From positions 2,882,501-2,946,500 of the forward strand of contig NZ_CP009286.1 in NCBI RefSeq assembly GCF_000758685.1: a stretch of 64,000 bases of DNA, in the 5' to 3' direction. Of the stretch, positions 4,667 to 48,075 are shown one piece after another; within the stretch, counting starts at the first letter, position 1; each line of letters opens with the position of its first letter. Source of the DNA: Paenibacillus stellifer (lineage in GTDB: Bacteria; Bacillota; Bacilli; Paenibacillales; Paenibacillaceae). The notes under the pieces were generated by a model that was not told where the DNA came from, searched no databases, and saw only the letters and a program-made list of their open reading frames with translations. The translations under genes and the position numbers were made by a program.

Positions 4667-4680
4667 AAGGGAGGGCGGAC

Positions 4681-5664
4681 ATGCCTCTGGATTTGGCTGA
4701 CAAGAAGCTGCTGAACCGTCTTCAGATCGGACTTCCACTTGTGAAACGGCCATGGGACTCCTTCGAGGACGAGCTTCAGCTTCAATATGAAGACATTCGG
4801 AAGCGATTGGAACGGTTGCAGCAGGAAGGTATAATCCGCCGGATCGGCGGCGTGTTTAACCCTTCCGCCCTCGGATACCGGGGGTGTCTGTACGCAATGG
4901 AGGTTGACGAATCCCGCTTTGCTCATACGGCGGCCGTAGTGAACCGGTTTAAGGGCGTCACGCATAATTACCGCCGCCGGAACCGGCTGAATATGTGGTT
5001 CACGCTGTCCTCCCGATTTGAGGAAGATCGGACGGCCATTCTGAGCGAGATCGGGGAAGCAGCCGGACATACCGGGATCTATGCTTTTCCTACCAAAAGA
5101 GTGTTCAAGCTGAGGGTATTTCTGAACATGGAGGAGCAAGGCGCGGACGGCGAACGGAGCGGCAGTGCCAGCAAGCCCTTGCTTCACCCGGCAACGGACG
5201 TGAACTGGGAGCATAGAGATTGGGAACTGATCCGTGAGCTTCAAGGCAGTCTTCCGCTCTCAGAGCTGCCCTTTGACGAAATCTCGGCCCGCATCGGCTG
5301 TGAACCGGAGGAAGTTCTCGAAAGGCTGCAGCGGCTTCATTCCGCCGGGGCACTTAAGCGGATCGCCGCAGTTCTGATGCACCGTCAGGCCGGTTACACT
5401 GCCAACGGGCTGTTCGTCGCCGAGGTTCCCGAAGAGGTGCTGGAGAAGGCGGGAACCCGTCTGGCGGGCCATACGGAAGTGAGCCACTGCTACGAGCGGC
5501 AGGCGTATCCCGAATGGCCGTACAATCTATACGCCATGATTCACGGTACGGATGAGAGAATTGTGCGGTCTGTCGCCGAAGAGTTTGCCCTGAAGGAAGG
5601 CATCGGAAAGTACGAGCTTCTGTTCAGCACAGCGGAGTTGAAGAAGACAAGCTTTACGATTTAG
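4681..5664 (+). CDS. Siroheme decarboxylase, fused AhbA-AhbB (NirD-NirL) type
   Basis: 327 residues made of two Lrp/AsnC-like halves. Each half has a winged helix followed by a ligand-binding domain: residues 1-155 contain GVTHNYRRRNRLNMWFTL, and residues 175-327 contain EVSHCYERQAYPEWPYNLYAM, the signature segments of AhbA and AhbB/NirDL. Such proteins remove the C12 and C18 acetate carboxyls of siroheme to give didecarboxysiroheme, the substrate of the NirJ/AhbC step. The ATG at 4681 follows GGGAGGGC and lies just after the nirJ2 stop. The Lrp-like fold would mislead an automatic annotation to transcription regulator; the HNY and HCYER motifs argue for the enzyme. Confidence 0.85.
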   Translation: MPLDLADKKLLNRLQIGLPLVKRPWDSFEDELQLQYEDIRKRLERLQQEGIIRRIGGVFNPSALGYRGCLYAMEVDESRFAHTAAVVNRFKGVTHNYRRRNRLNMWFTLSSRFEEDRTAILSEIGEAAGHTGIYAFPTKRVFKLRVFLNMEEQGADGERSGSASKPLLHPATDVNWEHRDWELIRELQGSLPLSELPFDEISARIGCEPEEVLERLQRLHSAGALKRIAAVLMHRQAGYTANGLFVAEVPEEVLEKAGTRLAGHTEVSHCYERQAYPEWPYNLYAMIHGTDERIVRSVAEEFALKEGIGKYELLFSTAELKKTSFTI

Positions 5665-13983: not shown

Positions 13984-14772
13984 GTGAACGTTGTGGAAAG
14001 AAAAAGAGTTGCCGCTCAACCGAGACTGACATTAACGGAAGCTCAGTTATCCAAGCTCTTGAAGCAGAATTATTCATTGATTCAAGGCAGCAGACAAGTT
14101 CTGAAGAAGGTGTTCGAACAATTGCTGGCCAAAGAGAAATTCATCTGTTTGACGGACAAGAACGGCTGCATGATCGATCTGATTGCCGATATCGAGACCG
14201 TTCAGTTCTTATTCGAGAATGGATTGAAGCTCGGGACCAATGTGGGGCATGGCGGCGTTACTGCCGTCGGTAAAGTGCTGAAATCCAAACAAATGGAAGT
14301 GGTCAACGGTCCGGAGCATTCCTGGGACGCCTTGCTGTCGTGGACCTGTATTGCCGCTCCCGTATATTTTATGGAAGAGTTCAAAGGGGTCGTCAGTATC
14401 TCGCTGAAAATAGATGAAAAGATCAACCATTGTAAAATTGTAGTCCAATTGGTGAGTGATTATGTTGCGGCGCTGCTCCGAATGGACCGAAAGCTTAAAC
14501 CGGATAGGCTTACCTTCTTTGGAGCGTTAATACTGGATAATCAAATAGGGCTGACTCCCAGAGAGATTGAGGTCTTATACCATCTGAAATCCGGGGAGTC
14601 GATTCACCAGCTTCCGGACTATCTGAAGGTATCGCCGAACACCGTGAAAAGCCATCTAAAGAGCATATACCGAAAGCTGGATGTGAATTCGCTGGAGCAT
14701 TGCCTCTTCGTAATCGACAGCATGATTGAACAGGCTACACAACTAAATATCGAATGCATGGAGAAAGGGTGA
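13984..14772 (+). CDS. GAF domain-LuxR family transcriptional regulator
   Basis: 262 residues. Residues about 25-165 form a GAF-like sensor of the type found in AcoR-like activators (SRQVLKKVFEQL, FICLTDKNGCMIDLI, then GGVTAVGKVLKSKQM and APVYFMEEFKGVVSISL). Residues 188-250 are a LuxR-type helix-turn-helix (LTPREIEVLYHLKSGESIHQLPDYLKVSPNTVKSHLKSIYRKL). The GTG at 13984 has AAAGGAG eight bases ahead and is preferred to the GTG at 13963. Lying immediately upstream of the 14.9-23.1 kb pathway operon on the same strand, with a terminator between, it is the obvious candidate activator of that operon. Confidence 0.82.
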   Translation: MNVVERKRVAAQPRLTLTEAQLSKLLKQNYSLIQGSRQVLKKVFEQLLAKEKFICLTDKNGCMIDLIADIETVQFLFENGLKLGTNVGHGGVTAVGKVLKSKQMEVVNGPEHSWDALLSWTCIAAPVYFMEEFKGVVSISLKIDEKINHCKIVVQLVSDYVAALLRMDRKLKPDRLTFFGALILDNQIGLTPREIEVLYHLKSGESIHQLPDYLKVSPNTVKSHLKSIYRKLDVNSLEHCLFVIDSMIEQATQLNIECMEKG

Positions 14773-14792
14773 GAAATTTCACCCTTTTTTTG
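14764..14792 (+). terminator. Rho-independent terminator of the regulator gene
   Basis: AAAGGGTGA (14764-14772) pairs with TCACCCTTT (14779-14787) and is followed by T-rich sequence. The stem includes the stop codon of the regulator, so the regulator and the pathway operon are probably separate transcripts. Confidence 0.8.
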
Positions 14793-14878
14793 TTTGTGCA
14801 GGGTGATTCGACAACTGGAAATGATAGGTAAAATAGAGCTTAGAAATAAATCATTATATGGATAGGAGACTGAGGTGC

Positions 14879-16054
14879 ATGGAGAATGTTGTTATCGTTG
14901 CGGCGGCGCGGTCAGCGATTGGAGCATTTGGCGGGGTAATCTCTGAAGCATCAGCGACCACCCTTGGAAGTGCAGTTATCAGAGGACTTATGGAGAGAAG
15001 CGGCCTTAAGGCTGGTGAAATTGATGAAGTTATTTTAGGCAATGTGCTCACAGCGGGATGCGGGCAAAATCCGGCCAGGCAATCGTCTTACGAGGCCGGT
15101 CTTCCGTATCAATCATGCGCCTATACGATCAACAAAGTGTGCGGTTCGGGGTTAAAGGCCATTCAATTGGGTGTACAAGCTATATGCTGCCAGGATGCGG
15201 ACATTGTTATCGCAGGAGGACAGGAGAATATGGATATGGCCGCGCACATCCTGAATAAGTCCCGGAAGGGCCAACGGATGGGCAACTGGGAGCTTGTAGA
15301 CAGTCTGATTCAGGATGGCTTATGCGATGCATTTGGCAACTATCATATGGGAATCACTGCGGAGAATATCGCGGAGAAGTTCGGGATCTCCCGCACGGAG
15401 CAGGACGAATTTGCCGTCAATTCACAGGCTAAAGCGAATGAAGCAATTCAAAATGAACGGTTCGCCAGAGAGATTATTCCGATTCAGATTGAAAAAAGAG
15501 GTACTGTTCATTCTTTTGATAAAGATGAATTTCCACGGCCGGGCACAAGCTTGGAGGTGCTATCCAGGTTGAAGCCGGCATTCAAAGAGAACGGCACGGT
15601 TACTGCTGGTAATTCCTCCGGTATTAACAATGGAGCCGCTGCCGTCCTGTTAATGAGCGAGAAGAAAGCGCATGAACTGGGTCTCAAGCCTTTGGCAAGA
15701 ATTGCGGGATACGCCAATGTCGGTGTGGACCCTTCATTAATGGGCACAGGTCCGATTATGGCCAGCAAGAAGGCACTGTCCCGGGCAGGGTGGGAAGTTC
15801 AGGAGCTGGATTTGATCGAATCGAATGAAGCTTTTGCGGCTCAAGCCATCGCGGTCAACCGGGAGATGCAATGGGATACCGATAAAGTAAATGTCAACGG
15901 CGGCGCGATAGCACTTGGCCATCCGATTGGCGCTTCCGGGGCACGAATCGTTGTCACCCTGCTGCATGAGATGCTGCGGCGCGATGCCCGAAAAGGTCTG
16001 GCGACCTTATGCATCGGCGGCGGGATGGGAGCTGCAATGCTGCTCGAAAGATAG
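14879..16054 (+). CDS. Acetyl-CoA C-acetyltransferase (thiolase)
   Basis: 391 residues, the usual thiolase II length. The nucleophile Cys88 is in [29 protein letters not shown] holds the catalytic His, and [13 protein letters not shown] the second Cys. It should make or cleave acetoacetyl-CoA. The ATG at 14879 is preferred to the one at 14858 because it gives the family start ([18 protein letters not shown]). It is the first gene of an eight-gene operon; the next gene, a PhaB-like reductase, acts on the same kind of 3-ketoacyl-CoA. Confidence 0.92.
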
Positions 16055-16081
16055 AATCTGCCTTTGAAAGGTGTGCCCTAT

Positions 16082-16822
16082 ATGAGCGAAAAAATTGCCT
16101 TGGTTACCGGAGGAACACGCGGGATTGGAGAGGCCATCTGCAAAAACTTTCTTGAGAATTCGTTCCGGGTCATTACATGTGCTACAAATGCCGAGCGAAA
16201 TGCCCGGTGGCTGGATATGCGAATTTCCGAAGGATATTCCAACGTGGATTGCTATGTCTGCGATGTGAGTGATTATGAACAATGCAGGTCAACCGTTGCG
16301 GATATTGAGCAGAAATACGGGCAAATCGACATCCTGGTTAATAACGCGGGGATTACGAGGGATGCAAGCCTGAAAAAAATGACGAAGGAAAACTGGGACG
16401 CCGTGCTGAGAACGAATTTGGACAGCCTGTTCAACATCACAAGTCATGTGCTGCCCCTGATGCTCAAACGGAATTACGGCCGCATCATCAATATTTCATC
16501 GGTCAACGGCGAGAAGGGACAGTTCGGACAGACCAATTATGCGGCTGCAAAAGCTGGTACTCACGGGTTCACCAAGTCATTGGCAAGGGAGGTATCGAAT
16601 AAGAACATTACGGTTAACACCGTATCGCCCGGATATATAGAGACCGACATGATGGCGAGCATCCCGAAAAATATTCTCGACGATATTATTGGACAGATTC
16701 CGGTAGGACGGCTTGGTAAACCGGAAGAAATCGCCGAGGTTGTCTATTTTCTCACAACAGGCGGTGCAGAGTACATTACAGGCTCGGTTATCTCCGTGAA
16801 TGGAGGACTGCATATGTATTGA
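16082..16822 (+). CDS. 3-ketoacyl-CoA/ACP reductase, PhaB/FabG-like SDR
   Basis: 246 residues. TGGTRGIG (9-16) binds NADPH, NNAG is at 87-90, and the catalytic Ser140, Tyr153 and Lys157 are present. The segment GQFGQTNYAAAKAG and the end SVNGGLHMY are closer to acetoacetyl-CoA reductase PhaB than to housekeeping FabG. It should reduce a 3-oxoacyl thioester to the 3-hydroxy form. It starts 28 bases after the thiolase with AAAGGTG ahead. Confidence 0.88.
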   Translation: MSEKIALVTGGTRGIGEAICKNFLENSFRVITCATNAERNARWLDMRISEGYSNVDCYVCDVSDYEQCRSTVADIEQKYGQIDILVNNAGITRDASLKKMTKENWDAVLRTNLDSLFNITSHVLPLMLKRNYGRIINISSVNGEKGQFGQTNYAAAKAGTHGFTKSLAREVSNKNITVNTVSPGYIETDMMASIPKNILDDIIGQIPVGRLGKPEEIAEVVYFLTTGGAEYITGSVISVNGGLHMY

Positions 16823-16846
16823 TTAACCGCTAAGGGGTGAACAGGT

Positions 16847-17887
16847 ATGAGTCATTGCGGCATTATCGGTCTGGGAATCTATGTACCGGAGTCCATCGTT
16901 ACGGCTAAAGAGCTGGCTAAACAGTCGGGCATTCCGGAATCGGTCATTGTGGAGAAGTACGGTCTTAAGCAAAAACGGGTGGCCGTCCCAGAGGAAACTC
17001 CGCTCTACATGGGGGTACGCGCTGCTCAAAGTGCACTGGCTGATTCCGGGCTGTCCGCTGCGGAGCTTGATGTTGTGATCTGGGCTGGAGGCCAGCACAA
17101 AGATTATATATCCTGGCTTGCCGGCACCAAAATCGCCAGCGAGCTGAATGCTCTCAACGCCTGGTCATTCGACATGTCAGCCCTTTGCGGCTCTATGATC
17201 AGCGCGATCGAAATCGCGCGCTCATTGCTGGCAGGCAACGAAGGCTACCACAACATTTTGCTTGTAAGCGGGTATCGGGACAGTGATCTGATTGATTTGA
17301 AGTGCAAGGAAACCTCTTTTCTTATCGATGTCGCTGCAGGAGCTTCGGCGCTAATTATCCAGAAGAATGCACCGATCAACGTGATTTTGGCAACGGCGTT
17401 TAAGAGCGACGGGAGCTTCGCAGACGATTGTGTCGTGGAATATGGCGGTGCCAAGCACTGGCCCCCGAAGGAGAATGAGCTGCAAAGATTGCACTTCACG
17501 GTAAAAGATCCGAGCAATTTCAAGGAGCGGCTGAAAGCAAAGACCGTGCCGAATTTCATCTCGGTTATCCGCGAGGCGCTGTTCAAGTCCGGGAAGAGTG
17601 ACCGGGACATTGACTATTTGGCAATTCTGCATCTTCCTAAATCTTCACATCATCACTATCTGTCCGAGTTCAATTTATCCGAGAATCAATCCACTTATCT
17701 GGATGAGTATGGCCACTTGGGACAAAATGATCCCATTCTGTCTCTGCAGATCGGGCTTGCAGACGGCAAAATCAAAGATGGAAGCACGGTGGTCATGACA
17801 GCGGCAGGCGTCGGGTTTATATGGGCTGCTTCGGTAATTCATTGGGGCAGCGCAGCAAGTGCGAGGAAGGAGAGTGAAACGGGATGA
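16847..17887 (+). CDS. 3-oxoacyl-ACP synthase III-like condensing enzyme
   Basis: 346 residues of the thiolase fold. The KASIII triad is complete: Cys114 (MSALCGSMISA), His262 (AILHLPKSS) and Asn294 (GHLGQNDPI). The sequence departs from housekeeping FabH around the substrate tunnel, for example SALCGSM in place of the usual AACSGF, so it probably uses a special starter or a CoA substrate. It overlaps iorA by ATGA, so the two are made in fixed proportion, suggesting that the acyl-CoA from IorAB may feed this enzyme. Confidence 0.83.
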   Translation: MSHCGIIGLGIYVPESIVTAKELAKQSGIPESVIVEKYGLKQKRVAVPEETPLYMGVRAAQSALADSGLSAAELDVVIWAGGQHKDYISWLAGTKIASELNALNAWSFDMSALCGSMISAIEIARSLLAGNEGYHNILLVSGYRDSDLIDLKCKETSFLIDVAAGASALIIQKNAPINVILATAFKSDGSFADDCVVEYGGAKHWPPKENELQRLHFTVKDPSNFKERLKAKTVPNFISVIREALFKSGKSDRDIDYLAILHLPKSSHHHYLSEFNLSENQSTYLDEYGHLGQNDPILSLQIGLADGKIKDGSTVVMTAAGVGFIWAASVIHWGSAASARKESETG

Positions 17888-19677
17888 AGGTTGTTCTGAC
17901 AGGAAATGAAGCGGTCGCCCGGGGCGCTTATGAAGCGGGAGCCGGCATGGCGACGGGTTATCCGGGAACCCCTTCAACGGTAGTGATTGAAGAGACGATG
18001 AGGAAGTACGCTGAAATCTACTCGGAGTGGTCAACGAACGAAAAGGTGGCTCTGGAGGTCGCGATGGGAGCCTCTTTTGCCGGCTATCGAAGCTATGCCG
18101 TCATGAAGACTGTCGGGCTCAATGTCGCTCATGACGCGCTGATGTCCGCAGCTCAAGCACAGACGAACGGAGGGCTGGTGCTCGTGGTATCGGACGATGC
18201 CGGACGGATCAGCGATGACTGCAACGACTGCCGTCATTACGGGGACAGCGCCGGGGTTCCCGTGCTCGAACCGTCAGACAGCCAGGAAGCTCTGGAATAT
18301 ATGAAGCTTGCTTTTGAGCTCAGTGAGCGGCTCAGCCTGCCGGTCATTATCCGTCTGACTTCCATCACATGCAAGACACGCAGCACGGTGGACATCGACG
18401 ACACTTACCAATATCAGAAGGCATTCCGCAAGAAATACAAATTCAGCTATTATGGCGTGCTGGCAAGCACGATGATGATCGGCATGGCAGACTCCTCGAA
18501 TGCCAAGATTCGCCGGTTCGATCATGATTTTGCCCAGGCACTGCGCAGCCTCAAGGAAGAATCCGCAGACCTTCCGGTGAATGTGCTTGAAATAAACGGC
18601 AGTGACATTGGAATCATCACCGCAGGTGTGCCATATGGCTATGTCAAGGAAATGCTGCCGGAGGCTTCGGTCTTGAAGCTCGGCTTGGTCTATCCGCTTC
18701 CGGAGCGTCTGATTCGCAGGCTTGCGGATCATGTTAACCGGCTGTATGTCATTGAAGACGGTCATGTGTTCCTCGAGAAGGAGATCAAAAGCCTTGGCTT
18801 CGATGTCATCGGGGAGAGCCTGTTCCCCAAATTTCCGGAATCCACATGCTTCAGCCCCGAACTGATATCACAGAAGCTGGGTTCAACAGAAGTCAGCGTA
18901 CACCCGATCCAGAATGTTTCCTTCCGTCTGCCGATGAATTGTGCCGGCTGCTCCCATCTATTCGTCTATCACATTCTGAAGAAGCATCGAATCGAGGCTT
19001 CAACCGATGTGACCTGCGGCGGGATCGGCGTCTTCCCGCATATCGGCGCTTTCAATAACGCGAAGCATATGGGTTCCTCCATCGGGATGGCTCACGGTGT
19101 GAACGTGATGAATCAGAGACAAGGAGAGCGGAAGTATGTTGCGGTCATAGGGGATGGCGGGTTCTGGGCAACCGGAATTAACGGAATGATTAATATGGTC
19201 TACAATTCGGTAAATTCCACGGTTATTATCGTAGACAATCAATGCATCGCAATGACGGGGGGCCAGAGTCTTCCATCCGGCGATTTTGGAGCTCATTACA
19301 ATCCGGAGAATCGTCTGAGCATCGCAGAGATGTGCCGGGCGATCGGAATTCGTGATATCCGTACAGTTGATGCCTATGATCTTGAGGAATTGGAAGACGC
19401 GGTGCTTGGCGCCGTCAACTCACAAGAAAGCTCAGTCGTCATCGTTCAGAAGCCTTGTCTGTTGAAAATCAAGCCGGATCGGTCCGTATCCGGGCATGTT
19501 GTGCAGAGCAAATGCGTTCATTGCAAAAGCTGTCTTCAGCTCGGTTGTCTCGCATTGGAAATTAAAACAACGGATCAAGGCGAGGAGATTCAAATCAACG
19601 AAAATCTGTGCGTTGGCTGCAAATTATGCGCCGCAACCTGTAAAAGCGAGGCGATAAGCTATGAGTGCTCCGGATAA
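17884..19677 (+). CDS. iorA: Indolepyruvate:ferredoxin oxidoreductase, alpha subunit
   Basis: 597 residues in the expected order: pyrimidine-binding domain (GNEAVARGAYEAGAGMATGYPGTPS), transketolase C-like domain (around 250-340), TPP pyrophosphate-binding domain with VIGDGGFWATGINGMINM near 420, and a C-terminal two-cluster ferredoxin domain (CVHCKSCLQLGC and CVGCKLCAATC). It oxidatively decarboxylates aryl 2-oxoacids (indole-, phenyl-, hydroxyphenylpyruvate) to arylacetyl-CoA and reduces ferredoxin. It is oxygen-sensitive in known cases. Its placement between a condensing enzyme and an exporter suggests a biosynthetic use rather than only amino acid catabolism. Confidence 0.93.
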   Translation: MKVVLTGNEAVARGAYEAGAGMATGYPGTPSTVVIEETMRKYAEIYSEWSTNEKVALEVAMGASFAGYRSYAVMKTVGLNVAHDALMSAAQAQTNGGLVLVVSDDAGRISDDCNDCRHYGDSAGVPVLEPSDSQEALEYMKLAFELSERLSLPVIIRLTSITCKTRSTVDIDDTYQYQKAFRKKYKFSYYGVLASTMMIGMADSSNAKIRRFDHDFAQALRSLKEESADLPVNVLEINGSDIGIITAGVPYGYVKEMLPEASVLKLGLVYPLPERLIRRLADHVNRLYVIEDGHVFLEKEIKSLGFDVIGESLFPKFPESTCFSPELISQKLGSTEVSVHPIQNVSFRLPMNCAGCSHLFVYHILKKHRIEASTDVTCGGIGVFPHIGAFNNAKHMGSSIGMAHGVNVMNQRQGERKYVAVIGDGGFWATGINGMINMVYNSVNSTVIIVDNQCIAMTGGQSLPSGDFGAHYNPENRLSIAEMCRAIGIRDIRTVDAYDLEELEDAVLGAVNSQESSVVIVQKPCLLKIKPDRSVSGHVVQSKCVHCKSCLQLGCLALEIKTTDQGEEIQINENLCVGCKLCAATCKSEAISYECSG

Positions 19678-20272
19678 AGGAAGTTACCTCATTTGCGGAT
19701 TGGGTGGCCAGGGGATAGGCCTGTTCGGCAAAATACTTGGCGAGTACTACACCCATCATGGATACGAGATCAAAATCTCGGATGTAATGGGACTTGGACA
19801 ACGGGGAGGGAGCGTTGAATGTCATTTCAGATACTCGACAGAACGCATTTACTCTCCGCTTATTCCATTTGGTACGGCAGAGGCGCTCATTTCTTTTGAA
19901 CAAATCGAGACGCTGCGCAATGCCCATTACCTGAAGAAGGACGGGCGGATTATTAGCAGCACGTATGAATTGAGTCCGCCAACGGTAAATACGAGGCTTC
20001 AGGCTGATATTCAGGGCAGCAAACGGGAAATCATTCAGCGATTAGGTTTCCCGGTCCGGTTTATTGACGATGCGGAAGTCGACCGGGCCGATCCGGAGTT
20101 CAATCGTGTGCGCAATATGATCGCCTTGGCTGTGCTCGCGGAACAGATGGAGCTGGACATCCAGAGCTTGATCGAATTGCTGAAGAACAATATATCTCCC
20201 TCATATCTTCAATTGAATCTTAGAGCTTTTGAATACGGGAGACAGTTATTTGAGAGAACGACAGCATACTAA
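19661..20272 (+). CDS. iorB: Indolepyruvate:ferredoxin oxidoreductase, beta subunit
   Basis: 203 residues of the gamma-type 2-oxoacid:acceptor oxidoreductase domain (YLICGLGGQGIGLFGKILGEYY, SDVMGLGQRGGSVECHFRYS). The start ATG lies inside the end of iorA, overlapping by 17 bases, with GCGAGGCGAT upstream, so the subunits are coupled. It completes the IorAB complex. Confidence 0.93.
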   Translation: MSAPDKGSYLICGLGGQGIGLFGKILGEYYTHHGYEIKISDVMGLGQRGGSVECHFRYSTERIYSPLIPFGTAEALISFEQIETLRNAHYLKKDGRIISSTYELSPPTVNTRLQADIQGSKREIIQRLGFPVRFIDDAEVDRADPEFNRVRNMIALAVLAEQMELDIQSLIELLKNNISPSYLQLNLRAFEYGRQLFERTTAY

Positions 20273-20292
20273 CTGCCAGATGAGGTGATGAA

Positions 20293-21516
20293 GTGAAGCA
20301 TTCAGCTTCAGAGATGCGGATTATTTCGTTATTGGTTTTTTTGGTTCCTTTTCTAATGGGACTCGGGGTCGATTTATATGTGCCTTCTCTGCCCTCGCTC
20401 GTGTCTTATTATCATAGCGATACCGGAACCGTTCAGCGGAGCATTAGCCTGTATATGCTGGGATATGGTGTGGGGCAGATGATGCTCGGAATTCTCTCGG
20501 ATCGTTATGGGCGTAGAAAAATACTGCTGGGCAGCTCATTGAGCTATGGAATCATCAGTTTGATCTGTATTAGCTCGCCGACTGTTCAAGTGCTCAATCT
20601 ATGCCGGCTCATCCAGGGCTTAAGCGTTGGCGGGATGGCGGTTGTGGGCCGGGCAATGGTCGTGGATTGTTATAAAGGAAAAGAGTTGGCCAAAGCAACG
20701 AATTACTTCGGATTAAGCTGGTCGCTAGGCCCGATCATCGGTCCATTTATCGGCGGTTATTTTGAAGAATATTTAAGCTGGAAAGCCGACTTCTATTTCT
20801 TTGGATTGTACGGCCTGATTATTTTTGGTTTAGCCCTGGCGCGGTTGCCTGAAACCAATCAAAATCTGGTTAAGCTGAACCTGAAAATCACGCTCTCGAA
20901 CATCGGAAAGATTATTAAAGATCCCGTATTCATGGGTATGACGATCATCGGCGGATTCGGTTACGCTTCAGTGGTGCTGTTCAACACGATGGGGCCTTTT
21001 CTCATCCAGAATGTTCTTGGCTATTCTTCCGTGATTTACGGTTATATTGCGCTGGTACTGGGAGCTTCTTATTTCTTGGGGTCGATTGGCAATCGGTTCA
21101 GCGTGGGCCGTTATCCCATCATGACCTTATTGATCTTCGGATTATCCAGTGCGTTGATTTTCAGCCTGATCATGATTTTGATTGAGTTTGCGGCAGGCGT
21201 GAGTCTTCCCGGAACGGTGATTCCGGTTCTGCTGATCGTCTTTGTCTGCGGTTTTATCGTCCCCAATACGTTAGCGCGATCAATGGAACTGTTTGCCCAT
21301 CTGGCGGGTACGGCAAGTTCCTTGTTCGGCTCTCTGTCGGGTGTCATCGTATCGCTCGTCACAACATTCGCCAGCCATTTAAAGGTCGATTCCCAGCTTC
21401 CGATGTCGTTCACATACAGCGGACTGATGCTCATCTCGATCCTGCTGTTTGGTGTCTGCCATTATGTTGATAAGCTGCCGGCCGGCAAAGAAAAGGAGGA
21501 GAAACTGCATGTATGA
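20293..21516 (+). CDS. MFS transporter, Bcr/CflA-like efflux protein
   Basis: 407 residues with twelve hydrophobic segments. DLYVPSLPSL in segment 1 and the loop GILSDRYGRRK identify the Bcr/CflA drug-efflux branch of the major facilitator family. It starts at a GTG (20293) behind GAGGTGAT, 20 bases after iorB, and overlaps the next gene by 8 bases. It is the likely exporter of whatever the operon makes, or confers self-protection. Confidence 0.88.
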   Translation: MKHSASEMRIISLLVFLVPFLMGLGVDLYVPSLPSLVSYYHSDTGTVQRSISLYMLGYGVGQMMLGILSDRYGRRKILLGSSLSYGIISLICISSPTVQVLNLCRLIQGLSVGGMAVVGRAMVVDCYKGKELAKATNYFGLSWSLGPIIGPFIGGYFEEYLSWKADFYFFGLYGLIIFGLALARLPETNQNLVKLNLKITLSNIGKIIKDPVFMGMTIIGGFGYASVVLFNTMGPFLIQNVLGYSSVIYGYIALVLGASYFLGSIGNRFSVGRYPIMTLLIFGLSSALIFSLIMILIEFAAGVSLPGTVIPVLLIVFVCGFIVPNTLARSMELFAHLAGTASSLFGSLSGVIVSLVTTFASHLKVDSQLPMSFTYSGLMLISILLFGVCHYVDKLPAGKEKEEKLHV

Positions 21517-22270
21517 ACCGAAAGCCGCGAACCGGGAATTGAGTCTGGTGCTGGGGGATATGGATACCGTTTATCAAGTGTCAACCTATGGCGCCGTGTT
21601 CGCGGGAGTATTGGATGGATTTGTGCCTTTGAAGGATTTGAGCAAATGGGGGGACTTCGGCATTGGCAGCATTACGGGACTCCATGGCGAAATCGCCATT
21701 CTGGACGGTATCATCCATCATTTTGATGAATATGGGCAGACTCGTTCCATTGACCGAGAGGACCTAACGCCCAAAATGCTACTTTCCTTTTTCAAAACGG
21801 ATCAGATTGTTCCTTTGCACACAGCAGCCACCTATGAGGAGACGAAGTCTGCGATCGAGCAGGCGCTTCCCTCAGCCAACATCATGTATGCGATCAAGAT
21901 CGAAGGTCTCTTCGAAGTTTTACGGACCAAATGTTATCCTGCCCAGCCGAAGCCGTATCCCAAAGGGATCAACACCGCTTTATCCAAGCATGTCCGAACG
22001 TATCATAACGAGCGCGGAACGTTGGTTGGCTACCTTATGCCGGAACATCTTGGCGAGATTTCCGGGCTAAGCTACCATTTTCACTTCATTACAGAGGACG
22101 GCAAGTACGGAGGTCATATGATTGATTTTACACTGATTGACGGAACTGCCTATCTGGATTACAAGCATACTTTGCGGCTCGTTCTTCCCAGCGATGAGGA
22201 GTACTACCAAGCCGATTTATCCGATACGATGAACATCCTTCAACAGGTCGTGGACATTTCACTGCAATAA
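21509..22270 (+). CDS. Acetolactate decarboxylase-like protein 1
   Basis: 253 residues of the alpha-acetolactate decarboxylase (AlsD/BudA) fold: YQVSTYGAVFAGVLDG, the KWGDFGIGSITGLHGE segment, and the metal site YHFHFITEDGKYGGH with His190, His192 and His203. Glu61 is kept. Compared from memory with the Brevibacillus enzyme, the active-site Arg in KARTVP is Lys141 and the C-terminal Glu of HEF is Thr221, so plain acetolactate decarboxylase activity is doubtful. No secretion signal is seen. The ATG at 21509 follows AAAAGGAGGAG and overlaps the exporter gene. No acetolactate synthase is nearby. Confidence 0.8.
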   Translation: MYEPKAANRELSLVLGDMDTVYQVSTYGAVFAGVLDGFVPLKDLSKWGDFGIGSITGLHGEIAILDGIIHHFDEYGQTRSIDREDLTPKMLLSFFKTDQIVPLHTAATYEETKSAIEQALPSANIMYAIKIEGLFEVLRTKCYPAQPKPYPKGINTALSKHVRTYHNERGTLVGYLMPEHLGEISGLSYHFHFITEDGKYGGHMIDFTLIDGTAYLDYKHTLRLVLPSDEEYYQADLSDTMNILQQVVDISLQ

Positions 22271-22314
22271 ATGCCAGTGTGTAAGGCGAAGAATCCGATG
22301 GAGGAGGGGTTTAG

Positions 22315-23097
22315 ATGAAGAACGGTCAAAATGTAGAGTACCGCAATACGGATGTGTATACGCAAGTCAATACAACGGCAGCGCTTGTTGCGGGCGTGAT
22401 GGAGACAGAGGTTACAATTCGCGATCTGAGTGAGTGGGGAGATTTCGGGCTGGGCTGCACGAAGGGGATGCAGGAATCGGTTCTGCTGCTGGATAATCAG
22501 ACCTATGTCAATAAAGTAGTCAAAGACGATCAGAAGATCGGGTTATTTCTGCTGGCCTTCTTCGAGGAGACCAATCCGGTCAGGCTTCAGCAGACGATGG
22601 ACCTGAACGATCTGAGAGCCTATATTGATTCGGCATTGCCGACTCCCAATATCATGTACGCCGTCAAATGCAAAGGCAAGTTCGAATCCATTCAAACGTC
22701 TATCCCCTTATCGTTTCAGAAGCCGTATCCGCGTGTCGTTCCCGAAATGACAGACCAATCCATCAATGTTGAAGTGGATAATATCAGCGGCACCATCATT
22801 GCCTTCTGGCTCCCGTCATTTTTATCAGGGATCAACGGTGGAGCGGGAGGACTGCACGCGCATTTCATCAGCGATGACCGGAAATTTATGGGCCATGTGA
22901 TCGATTGCAAAATGACTGAAGGCGTACTGTGGATCGATGCCAAGCATCAGCTGAATCTTCAGCTTCCGAAGGCTGATCCCGCTTTCTATGAAGTTGACCT
23001 GAATGGAAATGAGGCCATGTCCAGACGGGTATCGGAATGGATCAAGGAAGGCATTGGAGGCAAAGAAATCCTACCTGGGGCCACTATAAAAGCATAA
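22315..23097 (+). CDS. Acetolactate decarboxylase-like protein 2
   Basis: 260 residues, homologous to the preceding protein but strongly diverged. The metal ligands are kept (HAHFISDDRKFMGH: His181, His183, His194), as is Glu54. The active-site Arg is replaced by Ser129 and the C-terminal Glu by Gln212, judged by alignment from memory. The start follows GGAGGAGGGG. Two different members side by side suggest a heterodimer or two consecutive decarboxylation or isomerisation steps on 2-hydroxy-3-oxo acid-like intermediates. Last gene of the operon before a strong terminator. Confidence 0.8.
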   Translation: MKNGQNVEYRNTDVYTQVNTTAALVAGVMETEVTIRDLSEWGDFGLGCTKGMQESVLLLDNQTYVNKVVKDDQKIGLFLLAFFEETNPVRLQQTMDLNDLRAYIDSALPTPNIMYAVKCKGKFESIQTSIPLSFQKPYPRVVPEMTDQSINVEVDNISGTIIAFWLPSFLSGINGGAGGLHAHFISDDRKFMGHVIDCKMTEGVLWIDAKHQLNLQLPKADPAFYEVDLNGNEAMSRRVSEWIKEGIGGKEILPGATIKA

Positions 23098-23158
23098 TAA
23101 TATAAGCTATACTGAGTTTAGTTATACTTGGTGCTTTTTTCCATCTAATGATGGGGCG

Positions 23159-23200
23159 GAAATAGACCGTGATCCTGGCCAGGGCGGTCTATTTCTTTTT
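23159..23200 (+). terminator. Rho-independent terminator of the pathway operon
   Basis: GAAATAGACCG (23159-23169) pairs perfectly with CGGTCTATTTC (23185-23195), 15-base loop, then TTTTT. It closes the operon that starts at 14879. Confidence 0.9.
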
Positions 23201-23256
23201 ACATATTGAGGTGACTCTTTCAGGTAAGTACAAATGATTAAGGAGCGGGGTCGAAG

Positions 23257-23667
23257 TTGAATATCGAGAAAGTTGATCTGGAACTTATAGAGGCAGCGCA
23301 GAACACGATAAGAAGTTTATACAAAGATGGCAAACATCACATTGGAGCGGCGGTTAGGACAAAAACAGGAAAAATATACACAGCGGTGCATCTAGAGGCT
23401 TACATCGGCCGAGTATCTGTGTGTGCTGAAGCGATCGCCTTGGGCAAAGCTATATCTGAAGGCGAGGATGATTTTGCTACGATAGTAGCCGTAAGGCATC
23501 CCGATCCGACAGAAGAGGATCAAACCATTGAAGTTGTATCGCCTTGCGGCATCTGCAGGGAATTGATTAGCGATTATGGAGCAGACATACAAGTTATTTT
23601 GAAGGGGACCAACCATTATTTTAATAAGAATATACAACAATTATTGCCGGACAAATATGAAAGATGA
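23257..23667 (+). CDS. Cytidine deaminase family protein (blasticidin-S deaminase-like)
   Basis: 136 residues from a TTG at 23257 behind AAGGAGCGGGG. Zinc and catalytic residues are in VCAEAIALG and SPCGICRE, the CAE/PCxxC pattern of cytidine and blasticidin-S deaminases. The order and spacing (HIGAAVRTKTGKIYTAVHLEAYIGR) resemble the blasticidin-S branch more than housekeeping Cdd. It begins a run of small accessory genes of lower GC. Confidence 0.8.
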   Translation: MNIEKVDLELIEAAQNTIRSLYKDGKHHIGAAVRTKTGKIYTAVHLEAYIGRVSVCAEAIALGKAISEGEDDFATIVAVRHPDPTEEDQTIEVVSPCGICRELISDYGADIQVILKGTNHYFNKNIQQLLPDKYER

Positions 23668-23691: not shown

Positions 23692-24261
23692 ATGAATACC
23701 TGCATATATATGATCAGACATGGAGAATCGCCAAAAACCGAAGGAAATGAAAGAACCCGTGGTTTAAGTGAGAAAGGTAGACTTGATTCGGAGAAAATAA
23801 TAGAACTTTTGAAGGACGAGGGAATCACCAGCTTCGTATCAAGTCCCTATAAGCGAGCTGTTATGACGATTGAGGGATTAGCCCACTTTTGCGGGCAAGA
23901 AGTATCTGTAATCGAGGATTTGAAAGAGTTCATGTTCTCAACCGAAGACAAAGTCGTAGGAGATCAGGAAGTATACGCAATGGTGAGAAAAATGTTTGAA
24001 ACCCCTGACTATGTACCTCCAATGGGTGAGTCGATGACAGAGTGTCAGCAACGAGCGGTGGCAGCATTGAAGGAAATTTTAACCATATACAAAGGGCAAA
24101 GAGTAGCAATCGGAACCCACGGTCTCGTTATGACCCTAATGATGAACCACTTCGATAATCAATATGGATATGAGTTCTTAATGAACACGTCCAAACCGGA
24201 TATTTACAAGATGGAATTTAATGAAGATACATTAGTTAACATTGATAGAATATGCTTATAG
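23692..24261 (+). CDS. Histidine phosphatase family protein
   Basis: 189 residues. The RHGE motif (YMIRHGESP, catalytic His10), VSSPYKRAVMTIEGL, and the second catalytic His in GTHGLVMTLMM are all present, so a phosphatase or mutase-type fold of the PhoE/GpmB kind is clear; the substrate is unknown. Good ribosome site (CAGGAGGAAGCA). Base composition is lower in GC than the pathway genes upstream. Confidence 0.88.
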   Translation: MNTCIYMIRHGESPKTEGNERTRGLSEKGRLDSEKIIELLKDEGITSFVSSPYKRAVMTIEGLAHFCGQEVSVIEDLKEFMFSTEDKVVGDQEVYAMVRKMFETPDYVPPMGESMTECQQRAVAALKEILTIYKGQRVAIGTHGLVMTLMMNHFDNQYGYEFLMNTSKPDIYKMEFNEDTLVNIDRICL

Positions 24262-24285
24262 GAATCTGAATAAGGGGGATTCTTG

Positions 24286-24843
24286 GTGATCAATGATGTG
24301 TACACAATGATTTCTAAATTGGCAACGCCCAGGCTGGTTGTAATATTGTGTGTTGCAATTATTTCTCTCTACATCTTGCTGAATTTTATCCTGGGTGTCC
24401 CCCAACTCAAACAGTTATCCGGCGGAATTGGAGTCATAGATTCAACCTTTAATTATTCCGCAGACAAAGTCTACACAATGATCGAAGCCTACGGACCCCA
24501 AGGGAGAAAAATCCATATTGTACTGGAAGTCGTTGACTTCATCTTTCCGCTTATTTACAGTTTGTTTTTCAGCTTGTCTGTTACCCTGATTCTTCGGCAA
24601 ATGTTCCCCCTAAATACGTTTACGCAGACGATATGTCTCCTGCCGTTATTGATCATTGTGTTTGAATATGTGGAGAACATAGGGGTATTAGCAATGTTAG
24701 TTTCATATCCAAGACAAATGGAAGTACTTGCTGTCTTAACAAATGTCGCTACCTTATTAAAAACACTGGTGACGGTATACTCCTTATTTGCAATACTTGC
24801 AGGCGCAATGTCCTGTTTTCTGAAAAAGTATGTAATTTACTGA
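24286..24843 (+). CDS. Hypothetical four-segment membrane protein
   Basis: 185 residues with membrane segments near residues 15-38, 80-105, 115-140 and 155-178, and an extracytoplasmic loop between the first two. No family recognised. The GTG at 24286 lies seven bases after GGGGG and is preferred to the TTG directly before it. Confidence 0.65.
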   Translation: MINDVYTMISKLATPRLVVILCVAIISLYILLNFILGVPQLKQLSGGIGVIDSTFNYSADKVYTMIEAYGPQGRKIHIVLEVVDFIFPLIYSLFFSLSVTLILRQMFPLNTFTQTICLLPLLIIVFEYVENIGVLAMLVSYPRQMEVLAVLTNVATLLKTLVTVYSLFAILAGAMSCFLKKYVIY

Positions 24844-24865
24844 ATCGTAAACGAAGGTGAGTCTA

Positions 24866-25336
24866 TTGAAAATTGAGTATGTAGAGACGGATCTAACCTC
24901 ACTTGCATTAATCCAGCCATTATGGGAGCGGCTTAGAGATCATCATGCTTCATTGTCGAGACATTTTTCGGAGCAGCTAAGCAGCAATACATTTGATGGG
25001 CGATCACGCGACCTGCTCGATAAATCGAGACAAGGACAAATAAAGATTATTTTAGCTCATGATGCAACTGCAGCGGCGAAGATACTGATCGGATATTGTA
25101 TTAGCTCGATCAACGAGGGGAAGCAGGGAGAGATCGATTCGATTTTTATTCTGGATCGTTATCGGGGTACAGGCATTGGAGATACCTTAATGAGACGAAC
25201 GCTGGATTGGTTTCAGGAAAATGAAATTCTCGACATTGGCATATCCGTTTTATTTGGAAATGAACAAGCATTGAAGTTTTATGAGAAATATGGATTTTAC
25301 CCAAGGTCTTATACATTGAAGAACACTGTGAATTAA
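24866..25336 (+). CDS. GNAT family N-acetyltransferase
   Basis: 156 residues. Motif A is IDSIFILDRYRGTGIGDTLMRRTLDWF and motif B is FGNEQALKFYEKYGF, both complete. The TTG at 24866 has AAGGTGA at the right distance; the GTG at 24857 does not. The acceptor is unknown. Confidence 0.82.
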   Translation: MKIEYVETDLTSLALIQPLWERLRDHHASLSRHFSEQLSSNTFDGRSRDLLDKSRQGQIKIILAHDATAAAKILIGYCISSINEGKQGEIDSIFILDRYRGTGIGDTLMRRTLDWFQENEILDIGISVLFGNEQALKFYEKYGFYPRSYTLKNTVN

Positions 25337-25550
25337 GTTGTAGGTTGATAAAAGAGCGGCACCATACGGTCTGTTGTCGAAGGAGAATAAGTTATTTGAC
25401 TGACGGTACGCCATTATCGAGAACGATAGTTAAATGGATAAGGGTTGCCACGTAACCGCTCTTCGCTCAAAAACGGGCAGAAAAGCGTTGTACATTGCTT
25501 GAGATATTTTAAGGGTACATCGAGTATAATGAATTAAACATCATCGGTAG
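25337..25550. other. Gene-free stretch with a distant inverted repeat
   Basis: AAGAGCGG (25352-25359) and CCGCTCTT (25456-25463) form an 8-base inverted repeat around 96 bases with no credible gene. A TATAAT at 25525-25530 may be the -10 of the murG paralogue; no good -35 stands 17 bases before it. The stretch could be the remnant of a small mobile element or simply a structured leader. Confidence 0.3.
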
Positions 25551-26645
25551 GTGGTAAAAATAAAAAAAATAATCTTTACTGGCGGTGGATCTGCAGGACA
25601 TGTAACCGTCAACATTGCAATGATACCTGAATTCATCCGTGCAGGCTGGTTAACCGAATATATTGGTTCAGTGGATGGTATTGAAAAGCAGCTAATCACA
25701 TCTAACTTTAATGTTAAATACCATTCAATATCAACAGGGAAGCTACGACGGTATCTAGATTGGCAGAACGTAAAGGATCCGTTTAAAGTGGTGAAAGGGA
25801 TTATGCAAGCATATCAGCTTATTAAGAAGCAGAAGCCTAATATTGTGTTTTCTAAAGGTGGCTTTGTTTCTGTACCAGTTGTAATTGGAGCTTGGTTGAA
25901 CAAAATTCCCGTTATCATACATGAATCTGATTTAACTCCAGGCTTAGCCAACAAGCTCGCAAGTCCGTTTGCTAGTCTGATTTGCACTACTTTTTCGGAA
26001 ACATCATCTTACTTTAACAACCACAAATGTTATTGCGTGGGACCTGTTCTTAGAGATGAATTGACAAAGGGCGATGCTGAACGTGGACGGGCATTCGTTG
26101 GGTTTTCAAATATTAAGAAACCTATAATAGTTATTATGGGGGGGAGTTTGGGATCACGGAAGATCAATCATGTGATTCGAGAATCCTTAACACAACTAAC
26201 AAAGAAGTTTCGAGTCATTCATCTTTGTGGAAAAGGACATCTGGATTCTTCTATTGCTAATTCTGATTACCGTGAATATGAGTATATAAACGAAGAATTA
26301 CCAGACATATTAACCATGTGTGATTTTGTGATTTCACGAGCGGGTTCGAATTCAATTTTTGAGTTTTTATCTTTAAAGAAACCAATGATTTTGATCCCTC
26401 TTACTAAGGAACAGAGTAGAGGAGATCAACTTTTAAATGCTGCTTCTTTTGAAAGCAAGGGTTACTGTAAAGTTCTACACGAAGAACAACTGAATCCTGA
26501 TAGCTTAATTGCTAGTATATATGAATTAGCAGAAGAAAAAGAACGGTATATTCGAAATATGAGTTCTTTCGAGCGTAATGATGCAGTAAGCCTTATTTAT
26601 AATCTGATTGTTGAGAACGCAAAGAATGGACTAAATGATGAATAA
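25551..26645 (+). CDS. murG: MurG paralogue, UDP-GlcNAc glycosyltransferase
   Basis: 364 residues. TGGGSAGHV (10-18), the KGGFVSVPVVIGAW segment, HESDLTPGLANK, GGSLGSRKIN and the sugar-nucleotide site ISRAGSNSIFEFL identify MurG, which adds GlcNAc to lipid I. The sequence resembles the second MurG of Bacillus cereus-type genomes rather than the one in the dcw cluster, and no cell-division genes are near. The GTG at 25551 overlaps its AGGTGG ribosome site; the true start might lie a few codons on. The gene is far richer in A and T than its surroundings, which points to acquisition or a different evolutionary history. Confidence 0.85.
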   Translation: MVKIKKIIFTGGGSAGHVTVNIAMIPEFIRAGWLTEYIGSVDGIEKQLITSNFNVKYHSISTGKLRRYLDWQNVKDPFKVVKGIMQAYQLIKKQKPNIVFSKGGFVSVPVVIGAWLNKIPVIIHESDLTPGLANKLASPFASLICTTFSETSSYFNNHKCYCVGPVLRDELTKGDAERGRAFVGFSNIKKPIIVIMGGSLGSRKINHVIRESLTQLTKKFRVIHLCGKGHLDSSIANSDYREYEYINEELPDILTMCDFVISRAGSNSIFEFLSLKKPMILIPLTKEQSRGDQLLNAASFESKGYCKVLHEEQLNPDSLIASIYELAEEKERYIRNMSSFERNDAVSLIYNLIVENAKNGLNDE

Positions 26646-32377: not shown

Positions 32378-34897
32378 TTATATGAACAGATTATGTCCAG
32401 CCTGGTCCGCCTGGCCCAGGTAGTAGCCGACTCCGCCGATGCCGATATCGTCGATCAGCTCTTCACGCTTAATTCCCATTAGATCCATCGACATTTGGCA
32501 GGCGACGATTTCAACGCCCTGGTCGAGTGCGCTCTGGATTAGCTCTTCCAGTGACGAGACATTCTTGCTCTTCATCAGGGAGCGGATCATTCGGGGACCA
32601 GCTCCGAGCATGTTCATCTGCGACAGCTTCAGCTTCCGGCTTCCGCGCGGCATCATGGCGCCGAACATTCGACCGATGATGTCCTTCCGGACCGGGACCT
32701 TGCTGGATTTGCGAATGATGTTGAGACCCCAGAACGTAAAGAACATGGTGACCTTCTTGCCGCTGGAGGCGGCGCCGTTCGCGATAATAAATGAAGCGAT
32801 GGCTTTGTCCAGATCTCCGCTGAAGACGACCATCGTACTGGCATTGCGCGCCGTGTCCTGCTGCTGAACAGACTCATTCTGCGGCATCGTGCCGTCCTTT
32901 CGCAGATAAGCTTCGATCGTGCCGCCTGGCAGCTTGGTCAGCCGTTCAAGCGGATTGCGCGACATGCGGGCCCATGCCTGTATGTCCTCATAGAAGCCGG
33001 GATCGGTGGCGGTCGCCTTCAGAATCTGGCCTGCCTCCAGCTTGTCGATATTCTGCTTCACCTGAATAAGCGGACCGGGGCAGCAGAGACCGCAAGCGTC
33101 AAGCTCGGCATCGGCCTTTAGTTCACTGACGGCGGTAGCCGGCTTAGAGCCGAAATCCGCCTTAATGACATTGCTGCCTGTATCCGGTTTGACTTCCTTC
33201 TCTGCCGTTACAGTTTTCCCGCCTGTCGGATTGGTTGGAGGAGTCGGCTTCGGGGTGAACTGGGTCATTTGGTACGTTTTATAGCCACCGGTGAGATTTT
33301 TGACGCGGTAGCCTTTCTGCTTCAGGATACGGGAAGCGGTATAGCCTCTCAGCCCAACCTGGCAGTATACCCAGATTTCCTTGCTGTGGTCCAGTTCGTT
33401 CAGCCGGTTCCGCAGTTCGTCTACCGGAATGTTGACGGAGCCTTCGATATGACCGTTCGCATGCTCCATTGCTGTCCGGACGTCAACCAGCATTACGGAT
33501 TCCGGGTCAAGGTCCTTCAGGTCAGAAGGAACGATGACTTCGGTCAGTCCGAGAACGACATTCTCCGCCGTATAGCCTGCCATGTTAACGGGGTCCTTGG
33601 CCGAAGAGTAAGGAGGAGCATATGCAAGCTCCAATTCCGCCAAATCCCGAACCGTTCCACCGAACCGGATGACGGCGGCGATATCGTCAATTCGTTTGTC
33701 CACACCGTCATTGCCGACAGCCTGCGCTCCGAGCACCTTGCCTGTGGCGTCAAAGATCAGCTTCATCGACAATGGCATAGCTCCGGGATAATACGAAGCA
33801 TGGGAGCCGGGATGAACATATACGGTTTGATAGGGAATGCCTAACCGATTTAACGTTTTCTCGTTGTTACCCGTAGCCGCACCTGTCAAATCGAATACTT
33901 TCAGGATCGAAGTCCCTTGAGTGCCTTTATATTCGGTGCGCAGTCCGGCGACGTTGTCCGCCGCAATCCGCCCCTGCTTGTTGGCCGGTCCTGCAAGCGG
34001 CACAGCCGTCTTCTGTCCATTCACGAAGTCAACCACTTCAACAGCATCGCCGACGGCATAGACATTCTCACAATTGGTCATCATATGCTTATCGACGACA
34101 ATATGTCCTCTCGGACCGAGCTCCAGTCCGCTGTCCTTAAGAAAAGCGGTATCCGGCGTCACGCCAATGGCAAGCAGAACCATTTCACTGCGGAGCGCCT
34201 TGCCGCTGGACAGTGATACTTCGACCTGGGAGCCTTCTTCCTTGAAGCCCTGTACCCGGTCGGAGAAAATCAGACGGACGCCATGGTCCTCAAGCTCCCG
34301 CGACAGAACAGAGGACATTTCCGGGTCAAAGGGAGCCAGCAATTGGTTGCCCGCTTCAATCAGCGTAACCTCAAGCCCTGCCTCTCGCAGATTCTCCGCC
34401 ATTTCGACTCCGATGAAGCCTCCCCCGATGACCACGGCTGAACGGGTTCCTTCTTCAGCGACAATGGATTTAATACGGTCGGTGTCGGGTATGTTGCGCA
34501 GCGTGTAGATGCGGGAGCTGTCGATGCCCGGAAGTGCCGGCCGGATCGGCTTGGCTCCGGGAGACAGGATCAGTGCATCATAGCTTTCTTCATAGATGCC
34601 GCGTTCGCGGCTGTTAACCGTCACTGTGTGATTCGTGGGGTCAATGGAGATCACCTCGCTCTGAATCCGGACATCGATATTGAACCGGCTATGCATTGCC
34701 TCAGGCGTCTGCACTAGAAGCCGCGAGCGGTCCTGGATGGAGCCGCCGATATAATAGGGAAGTCCGCAGTTAGCGAATGAAATATAGGCGTCCCGTTCGA
34801 ACATGACAATATGTGCTTCCTCGTCCAGTCTGCGAAGACGGGCAGCGGCGGATGCGCCACCGGCCACTCCGCCGACAATCAATACTTTTTTAATCAT
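32378..34897 (-). CDS. CoA-disulfide reductase-rhodanese-TusA-DsrE fusion
   Basis: 839 residues in four parts. Residues 1-445: FAD/NAD-dependent CoA-disulfide reductase with the redox Cys44 in SFANCGLPYY. Residues about 455-545: rhodanese with active Cys512 in YCQVGLRG. Residues about 595-665: TusA-like domain with Cys602, Cys605 and Cys606 (ACGLCCPGP). Residues about 688-839: DsrE-like domain with Cys in VACQMSMDLMG. Such chains handle persulfide and polysulfide sulfur and pass it between cysteines. The start has AAGGAGGAATCACAGC. It overlaps the upstream ArsR gene by 8 bases, so it is regulated with it. Confidence 0.9.
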   Translation of the reverse strand: MIKKVLIVGGVAGGASAAARLRRLDEEAHIVMFERDAYISFANCGLPYYIGGSIQDRSRLLVQTPEAMHSRFNIDVRIQSEVISIDPTNHTVTVNSRERGIYEESYDALILSPGAKPIRPALPGIDSSRIYTLRNIPDTDRIKSIVAEEGTRSAVVIGGGFIGVEMAENLREAGLEVTLIEAGNQLLAPFDPEMSSVLSRELEDHGVRLIFSDRVQGFKEEGSQVEVSLSSGKALRSEMVLLAIGVTPDTAFLKDSGLELGPRGHIVVDKHMMTNCENVYAVGDAVEVVDFVNGQKTAVPLAGPANKQGRIAADNVAGLRTEYKGTQGTSILKVFDLTGAATGNNEKTLNRLGIPYQTVYVHPGSHASYYPGAMPLSMKLIFDATGKVLGAQAVGNDGVDKRIDDIAAVIRFGGTVRDLAELELAYAPPYSSAKDPVNMAGYTAENVVLGLTEVIVPSDLKDLDPESVMLVDVRTAMEHANGHIEGSVNIPVDELRNRLNELDHSKEIWVYCQVGLRGYTASRILKQKGYRVKNLTGGYKTYQMTQFTPKPTPPTNPTGGKTVTAEKEVKPDTGSNVIKADFGSKPATAVSELKADAELDACGLCCPGPLIQVKQNIDKLEAGQILKATATDPGFYEDIQAWARMSRNPLERLTKLPGGTIEAYLRKDGTMPQNESVQQQDTARNASTMVVFSGDLDKAIASFIIANGAASSGKKVTMFFTFWGLNIIRKSSKVPVRKDIIGRMFGAMMPRGSRKLKLSQMNMLGAGPRMIRSLMKSKNVSSLEELIQSALDQGVEIVACQMSMDLMGIKREELIDDIGIGGVGYYLGQADQAGHNLFI

Positions 34898-48051: not shown

Positions 48052-48075
48052 AATCATTCACCGCCGATCATGGAT

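Follow-up and report, generated by a model that had tools for sequence, protein, structure and literature searches.

An eight-gene operon of Paenibacillus stellifer that may make and export a small molecule through remodelled IorAB and AlsD-like enzymes

What does an operon produce when each of its genes belongs to a familiar family and the set as a whole has no evident precedent? The question is raised by a 64,000-nucleotide stretch of the Paenibacillus stellifer genome (assembly GCF_000758685.1, contig NZ_CP009286.1, positions 2,882,501–2,946,500 of the forward strand), referred to here as the window and taken from a genome that is a single contig of 5.66 Mb. Eight genes at window positions 14879–23097 and the gene for a LuxR-type regulator that precedes them were confirmed to form a coherent operon ending in a strong terminator. 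They encode a thiolase (Thl), a reductase (SDR), a KASIII-fold ketosynthase (KAS), the two subunits of an IorAB-like 2-oxoacid oxidoreductase, an MFS transporter and two acetolactate-decarboxylase-like proteins (Als1 and Als2). The families are familiar, their combination was met nowhere else in the genomes examined beyond the two carriers described below, and unusual residues occupy places that are otherwise invariant. We tentatively favour the reading that this is a small specialised-metabolite operon, in which a C4 unit made by the thiolase and reductase would be coupled with another acyl unit before Als1 and Als2 finish the product and the transporter exports it. Because the families are combined in a way not met elsewhere in the genomes examined and otherwise invariant residues are altered, the product is hard to predict; it is probably a small molecule beyond prediction from family names alone. 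The features are listed below, with the ratio of non-synonymous to synonymous substitution rates (dN/dS) taken against Paenibacillus sinensis.

13984–14772, + strand: LuxR-type regulator with a C-terminal GerE domain (Pfam GerE, 1.4e-11); dN/dS 0.109.
14779–14806, no strand assigned: inverted repeat TCACCCT-N14-AGGGTGA between the regulator and thiolase genes, a candidate operator.
14879–16054, + strand: Thl, thiolase of the acetyl-CoA (coenzyme A) C-acyltransferase family (TIGR01930, 478.9 bits, cut-off 240.55); dN/dS 0.057.
16082–16822, + strand: SDR of the acetoacetyl-CoA reductase subfamily (TIGR01829, 338.2 bits, cut-off 302.1); dN/dS 0.050.
16847–17887, + strand: KAS, KASIII-fold ketosynthase of the NF005308 (PRK06840) family (NF005308, 408.4 bits, cut-off 315); dN/dS 0.127.
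17884–19677, + strand: IorA-like thiamine-diphosphate 2-oxoacid oxidoreductase, remodelled (TIGR03336, 487.7 bits, below the cut-off of 650.9); dN/dS 0.089.
19661–20272, + strand: IorB-like subunit (Pfam POR, 7.9e-27); dN/dS 0.058.
20293–21516, + strand: MFS transporter of the Bcr/CflA efflux subfamily (TIGR00710, 243.9 bits, cut-off 200.9); dN/dS 0.072.
21509–22270, + strand: Als1, acetolactate-decarboxylase-like (PF03306, 2.2e-55; TIGR01252, 169.2 bits, below the cut-off of 180.65); dN/dS 0.095.
22315–23097, + strand: Als2, acetolactate-decarboxylase-like (PF03306, 8e-47; TIGR01252, 149.5 bits, below 180.65); dN/dS 0.067.
23158–23196, + strand: terminator hairpin followed by a T run (fold of 23141–23205, −26.8 kcal/mol), also present in P. 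sinensis.

A preliminary description of this DNA, made from its letters, had reported eight contiguous same-strand genes, overlapping or closely spaced, that end at one strong terminator. This layout was borne out: the intergenic gaps from Thl to Als2 measure 27, 24, −4, −17, 20, −8 and 44 bases, and every start has a purine-rich stretch on its 5′ side, as judged by eye. The terminator hairpin was absent from the output of a simple terminator scan and was found by folding. The 106-base gap between the regulator and thiolase genes holds the inverted repeat, whose arms are shared with P. sinensis. The regulator had been described as a GAF–LuxR protein; the LuxR part stands, given the GerE domain. 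The GAF part would depend on a weak DhaR-like match of the N-terminal part (residues 22–172; NF008485, 44.4 bits, cut-off 551), and a Pfam search of the protein detected no GAF domain. The P. sinensis locus retains the genes that come next and has no frame matching the cytidine deaminase gene located after the terminator (23257–23667), so this gene lies outside the operon unit.

P. sinensis HN-1 carries the same eight genes in identical order, all intact, with protein identities of 90.5–97.7%. All eight are under purifying selection between the two species, dN/dS ranging from 0.050 (SDR) to 0.127 (KAS). Because gene order, gene content and low dN/dS are kept in P. sinensis, the operon is more than a chance grouping; a search of genome neighbourhoods for joint conservation, as proposed earlier, found the eight genes kept as a unit in this one other carrier.

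The broad family assignments of the eight genes in the preliminary description are supported, and Thl, SDR, KAS and the MFS transporter each clear a curated family or subfamily cut-off. At finer grain, the thiolase misses narrower models such as NF004206 (594.1 of 688 bits), and the reductase, called PhaB-like earlier, keeps that likeness at the level of the subfamily model TIGR01829 but misses the PhaB equivalog NF042966 (196.5 of 436 bits). In the proposed order of reactions, the thiolase and SDR would convert acetyl-CoA to (R)-3-hydroxybutyryl-CoA, as their subfamilies suggest, and a 2-oxo acid, probably none of the usual arylpyruvates, would be turned by the remodelled IorAB into a second acyl unit. 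The ketosynthase, which carries Cys114, His262 and His290, would join the two units. Als1 and Als2, acting as one heteromeric metalloenzyme, would then turn the oxo acid so formed, by decarboxylation or rearrangement, into a small product resembling a hydroxyketone. The transporter, assigned by TIGR00710 to the Bcr/CflA-type efflux subfamily, would export that product, and the LuxR-type regulator would switch the operon on.

The two AlsD-like proteins were compared with 33 control AlsDs, the remainder of 35 sequences (from 11 of 54 other matching class genomes, 18 of 35 order genomes and 6 of 170 plasmid records) after two duplicates had been dropped. The first Glu, an Arg, three His and the C-terminal Glu are present in 33 of 33 controls; we take these to be E65, R145 (Brevibacillus numbering) and E253, with the His residues as presumed metal ligands. 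Als1 keeps the first Glu and the three His, has Lys in place of the Arg and lacks the C-terminal Glu, whereas Als2 keeps the three His and the C-terminal Glu and has Ser in place of both the first Glu and the Arg. Neither protein reaches the TIGR01252 cut-off, a strict one that only 1 of 5 matching control genomes exceeded. The decarboxylation of 2-hydroxy-3-oxo acids that the preliminary description had assigned to them consequently loses its footing, both scores lying below cut-off and invariant residues being partly lost. Maximum-likelihood analysis places the four operon Als sequences on one side of a branch with support 97/91, the operon stems measuring 1.98 and 2.6 changes per column and the tool warning of long branches elsewhere in the tree. 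A single duplication would be the simplest origin of the pair. The complementary loss of a conserved Glu suggests that Als1 and Als2 assemble into a single heteromer whose site is shared or split, and makes a split active site sharply testable. A structure model of Als2 has a mean pLDDT (predicted local distance difference test) of 78.9.

A biosynthetic role is supported by an intact unit under purifying selection, by the curated cut-offs that Thl, SDR, KAS and MFS pass, by the grouping of Als1 and Als2 with their complementary Glu loss, by the efflux type of the transporter, by an assembly logic resembling that in the published passages on carbazoles considered below, and by what the genome lacks. 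Besides Als1 and Als2 no AlsD was found in the genome, and no protein exceeded the TIGR01252 cut-off in a scan of it; a second IorA was not found at E 1e-8; and the whole genome holds no AlsS over cut-off. A whole-genome search with PhaC_N gave no match.

Several results weigh against this role. The PhaC_N search is one-sided, since only 1 of 14 control genomes matched, and a Bacillus-type PhaC may, we assume, escape the model used. Two weaker acetolactate-synthase relatives lie in the genome at 1.55 Mb and 2.75 Mb (309.6 and 218.7 of 551.1 bits). A domain search of the eight operon genes found thioesterase, ligase, carrier protein and aminotransferase domains absent. The grouping of Als1 with Als2 may suffer from long branches, and the changes in IorA, detailed below, would mark a different enzyme without telling its substrate. 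The neighbourhoods of KAS relatives count against it too: in 23 of 23 non-operon loci, an ABC transporter (ATP-binding cassette) with a solute-binding protein adjoins the ketosynthase, with matches to five transporter genes in the same order. The Paenibacillaceae loci, 15 of 15, also match an alpha/beta hydrolase, an SDR and a BTAD-type regulator, and 8 of the 15 a CoA transferase. These neighbourhoods suggest a catabolic origin and leave the anabolic direction of the operon tentative.

A catabolic operon is the main alternative and quite possible. The MFS protein would import a hydroxy-oxo acid, Als1 and Als2 would prepare it, IorAB would convert it by oxidative decarboxylation to a 3-hydroxyacyl-CoA, SDR would oxidise this, and the thiolase and KAS would cleave it to acetyl-CoA; a 4-hydroxy-2-oxo acid, for example, would give 3-hydroxybutyryl-CoA. 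The cell would gain reduced ferredoxin besides. For 4-hydroxy-2-oxo acids the family reactions of IorAB, SDR and the thiolase make a self-consistent chain, and one regulator heads the operon. The strongest evidence is the ABC-transporter linkage just described, which suggests a catabolic past and has to be weighed against the export-type MFS. The 23 loci mapped (15 Paenibacillaceae, 8 haloarchaeal) represent 13 of 13 family, 2 of 2 genus and 8 of 10 plasmid records. In a tree of 21 rows, 4 of which contained one stop sign, the operon enzyme sits on a long branch with the Paenibacillaceae members, a group supported by 98/100. Two haloarchaeal loci encode a thiamine-dependent 2-oxoacid dehydrogenase complex nearby. 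Like these clusters of Paenibacillaceae and haloarchaea, the operon has a KAS of the family in which His replaces the Asn of FabH; like the 15 Paenibacillaceae loci, it also has a neighbouring SDR gene. It differs in having no ABC transporter or hydrolase (neither the regulator nor any of the eight proteins is part of an ABC transporter) and in having instead a thiolase, IorAB, an MFS transporter and two AlsD-like genes, none of which was matched at E 1e-15 within the stretch examined of any of the 23 loci. Against degradation also stand the transporter, which clears the efflux-subfamily cut-off, and the two terminal decarboxylase-like genes with no CoA ligase or CoA transferase, an arrangement that we judge unusual for a degradation operon.

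Within the NF005308 family the Cys-His-His set is present in 19 of 19 aligned members, including the operon pair, and two FabH-type paralogues from the same genome have Asn in place of the last His. The residue before the catalytic Cys is Leu in the operon KAS and in both aligned haloarchaeal members, and Arg in 15 Paenibacillaceae relatives. A literature search by the name PRK06840 found no paper. As an observation apart, the cluster of a five-gene branched-chain-type ABC transporter with a Cys-His-His ketosynthase directly after it recurs across two domains of life. At one Paenibacillaceae locus (L032, 4255–7743), phosphoenolpyruvate-mutase/isocitrate-lyase-like, citrate-synthase and MmgE/PrpD genes follow; this set is methylcitrate-cycle-like and hints at propionyl-CoA as a product there.

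The preliminary description had placed IorAB at the head of a different pathway, in which an arylpyruvate becomes arylacetyl-CoA, is extended by C2 or C4 units and is decarboxylated to an aryl ketone or acyloin. With indolepyruvate ferredoxin oxidoreductase the operon pair shares two genes in the same order, the thiamine-enzyme domain and the eight Cys of two 4Fe-4S motifs; that enzyme's model, TIGR03336, is the best NCBIfam match of IorA, below its cut-off, and the IorA matches listed are 36–45% identical. The residues tell otherwise. Controls comprised 25 IorAs, from the 19 best-scoring of 212 other matching phylum genomes and from 6 of 6 family genomes, and the operon IorA is altered at 38 of the 139 positions invariant among them, whereas leave-one-out counts for each of the 25 gave 0–6. 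Twenty of the 38 fall in segments 103–114, 376–398 and 425–435, the last of which we take to be the thiamine-binding motif. IorB reaches 100.2 of 205.8 bits in the TIGR03336/TIGR03334 test and 138.5 of 230 with its best model, and reaches the cut-off of none of the 18 NCBIfam models listed. With IorA below cut-off and its invariant residues partly lost, and an aromatic aminotransferase domain absent from the operon, the aryl pathway appears improbable. By superfamily, IorA is predicted to be a thiamine-dependent, iron-sulphur 2-oxoacid enzyme; an aryl substrate is unsupported. Naming pathways from family labels is evidently risky, as these IorA and AlsD matches are without residues invariant in 25 and 33 sequences, respectively.

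An ordinary module, with the AlsD pair making acetoin and the thiolase and reductase feeding polyhydroxybutyrate, is what the family names would suggest. The two weaker acetolactate-synthase relatives could supply acetolactate, and the presumed escape of a Bacillus-type PhaC from the model is the reason for granting this reading a small place. It is unlikely in both halves, because the genome holds no PhaC_N match, no AlsS over cut-off and no other AlsD, and we rate the whole as highly improbable. Compared with the alsSD/budAB pathway, the operon shares AlsD-family proteins with three His and differs in lacking AlsS, in having two AlsD-like copies, in the loss of Arg from both and of one Glu from each, and in its sub-cut-off scores. 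The acetoin pathway was therefore disfavoured on the AlsS relatives below cut-off, the missing Arg and the Als scores, and polyhydroxybutyrate supply on the PhaC_N result. Elsewhere in the genome, at about 2.746–2.751 Mb (L090, 7900–13428), a second KASIII-like gene, a carboxymuconolactone-decarboxylase-family gene and a gene for an acetolactate-synthase-like thiamine enzyme lie on the same strand with a transposase-looking frame, judged by eye, between them; this is perhaps a disrupted thiamine–ketosynthase cluster.

No gene set of this kind was found described in a literature search of open PubMed Central papers, as the preliminary description had anticipated. A close parallel for the proposed biosynthesis lies in the actinomycete carbazoles (Cqs/Nzs): in the passages of PMC7466098 concerned, a thiamine enzyme acts on a 2-oxo acid, condensing indolepyruvate with pyruvate, alongside a KASIII-like condensing enzyme and an (R)-3-hydroxybutyryl unit. 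The assembly logic of the operon is similar, a likeness drawn from those descriptions. By the same passages, its thiamine enzyme differs from that of the carbazoles in being of the two-subunit IorAB type, and AlsD-like proteins, present in the operon, go unmentioned in them. No domain corresponding to the carbazole cluster's cyclase, carrier protein or aminotransferase occurs among the eight genes, and membership of that cluster type was rejected, the logic being similar and its other parts absent. In xenocyloin and other acyloin pathways, a thiamine enzyme and ketosynthase-like proteins make acyloins; their thiamine enzyme is of another type than the operon's.

A more specific and unlikely form of the favoured biosynthesis would be an undescribed pathway of C–C bond formation, in which the remodelled IorAB uses thiamine to donate an acyl unit or to act as a carboligase, the Cys-His-His KAS, recruited from the ABC-transporter-linked family, couples this to 3-hydroxybutyryl-CoA, and a composite Als1/Als2 site, with one Glu from each protein, acts on a product that no known AlsD accepts. 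If true, known enzyme families would have been re-tuned jointly in one small operon, a test case for the passage from primary metabolism to a new pathway. The literature describes nitrogen-fixing, rhizosphere Paenibacillus, so that a small molecule secreted by such bacteria could be of consequence for plants.

The distribution of the operon is narrow. It was carried by 2 of 100 genus genomes, those of the window and P. sinensis, and by 1 of 295 in the family; the wider searches were of samples (295 family, 392 order, 299 class and 398 phylum genomes). KAS matches at E 1e-60 occurred in 4 of the 100 genus genomes: the window's own, one taken to be the P. sinensis assembly, at 90% identity, and two at 34–36% that sit in the other, ABC-transporter kind of cluster. 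In the family sample, 14 genomes matched at E 1e-40, all except the window's own at 36–42% identity. With Als1 as the query (E 1e-15), 35 order genomes had an AlsD-family match, two copies being present only in both carriers; with Als2 (E 1e-20), 55 class genomes matched, two copies being present only in the window genome. A scan of 84,980 genomes with six exact eight-residue KAS patterns confirmed one locus, that of P. sinensis, and missed the relatives of 34–43% identity that other searches found, which means that divergent carriers may have escaped it. Among 72,556 plasmid records none came near to matching the operon as a whole, and relatives found with Als2, KAS and IorA were all below 60% identity; a plasmid-borne origin is accordingly disfavoured. 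Three genus members have the upstream ABC genes at 72–73% identity and no operon genes in the 18 kb examined, their flanks being too divergent for an empty-site comparison to place the junction. Least probable of all is a chance assembly or decaying island without joint function, which the patchy distribution would fit but which is disfavoured by eight intact genes, in the same order and with overlapping starts, under selection between two species.

Further features of the window stand apart from the operon. At 24001–26000 the G+C content drops to 0.40, the flanks on both sides having 0.46 and the rest of the window 0.45–0.59; the dip lies around a MurG-like frame (25551–26645, by eye) and may mark a recent acquisition. 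At 3665–5664 a radical SAM/SPASM protein adjoins a siroheme-decarboxylase-like (NirDL/AsnC-type) protein, possibly for alternative haem or haem d1-type chemistry. A pyridine-nucleotide-disulphide oxidoreductase is fused with rhodanese, TusA and DsrE domains at 32378–34897, and a 1400-residue fusion of molybdopterin oxidoreductase, flavodoxin, FAD and NAD domains at 43855–48057 resembles a reductase fused to its own flavoprotein.

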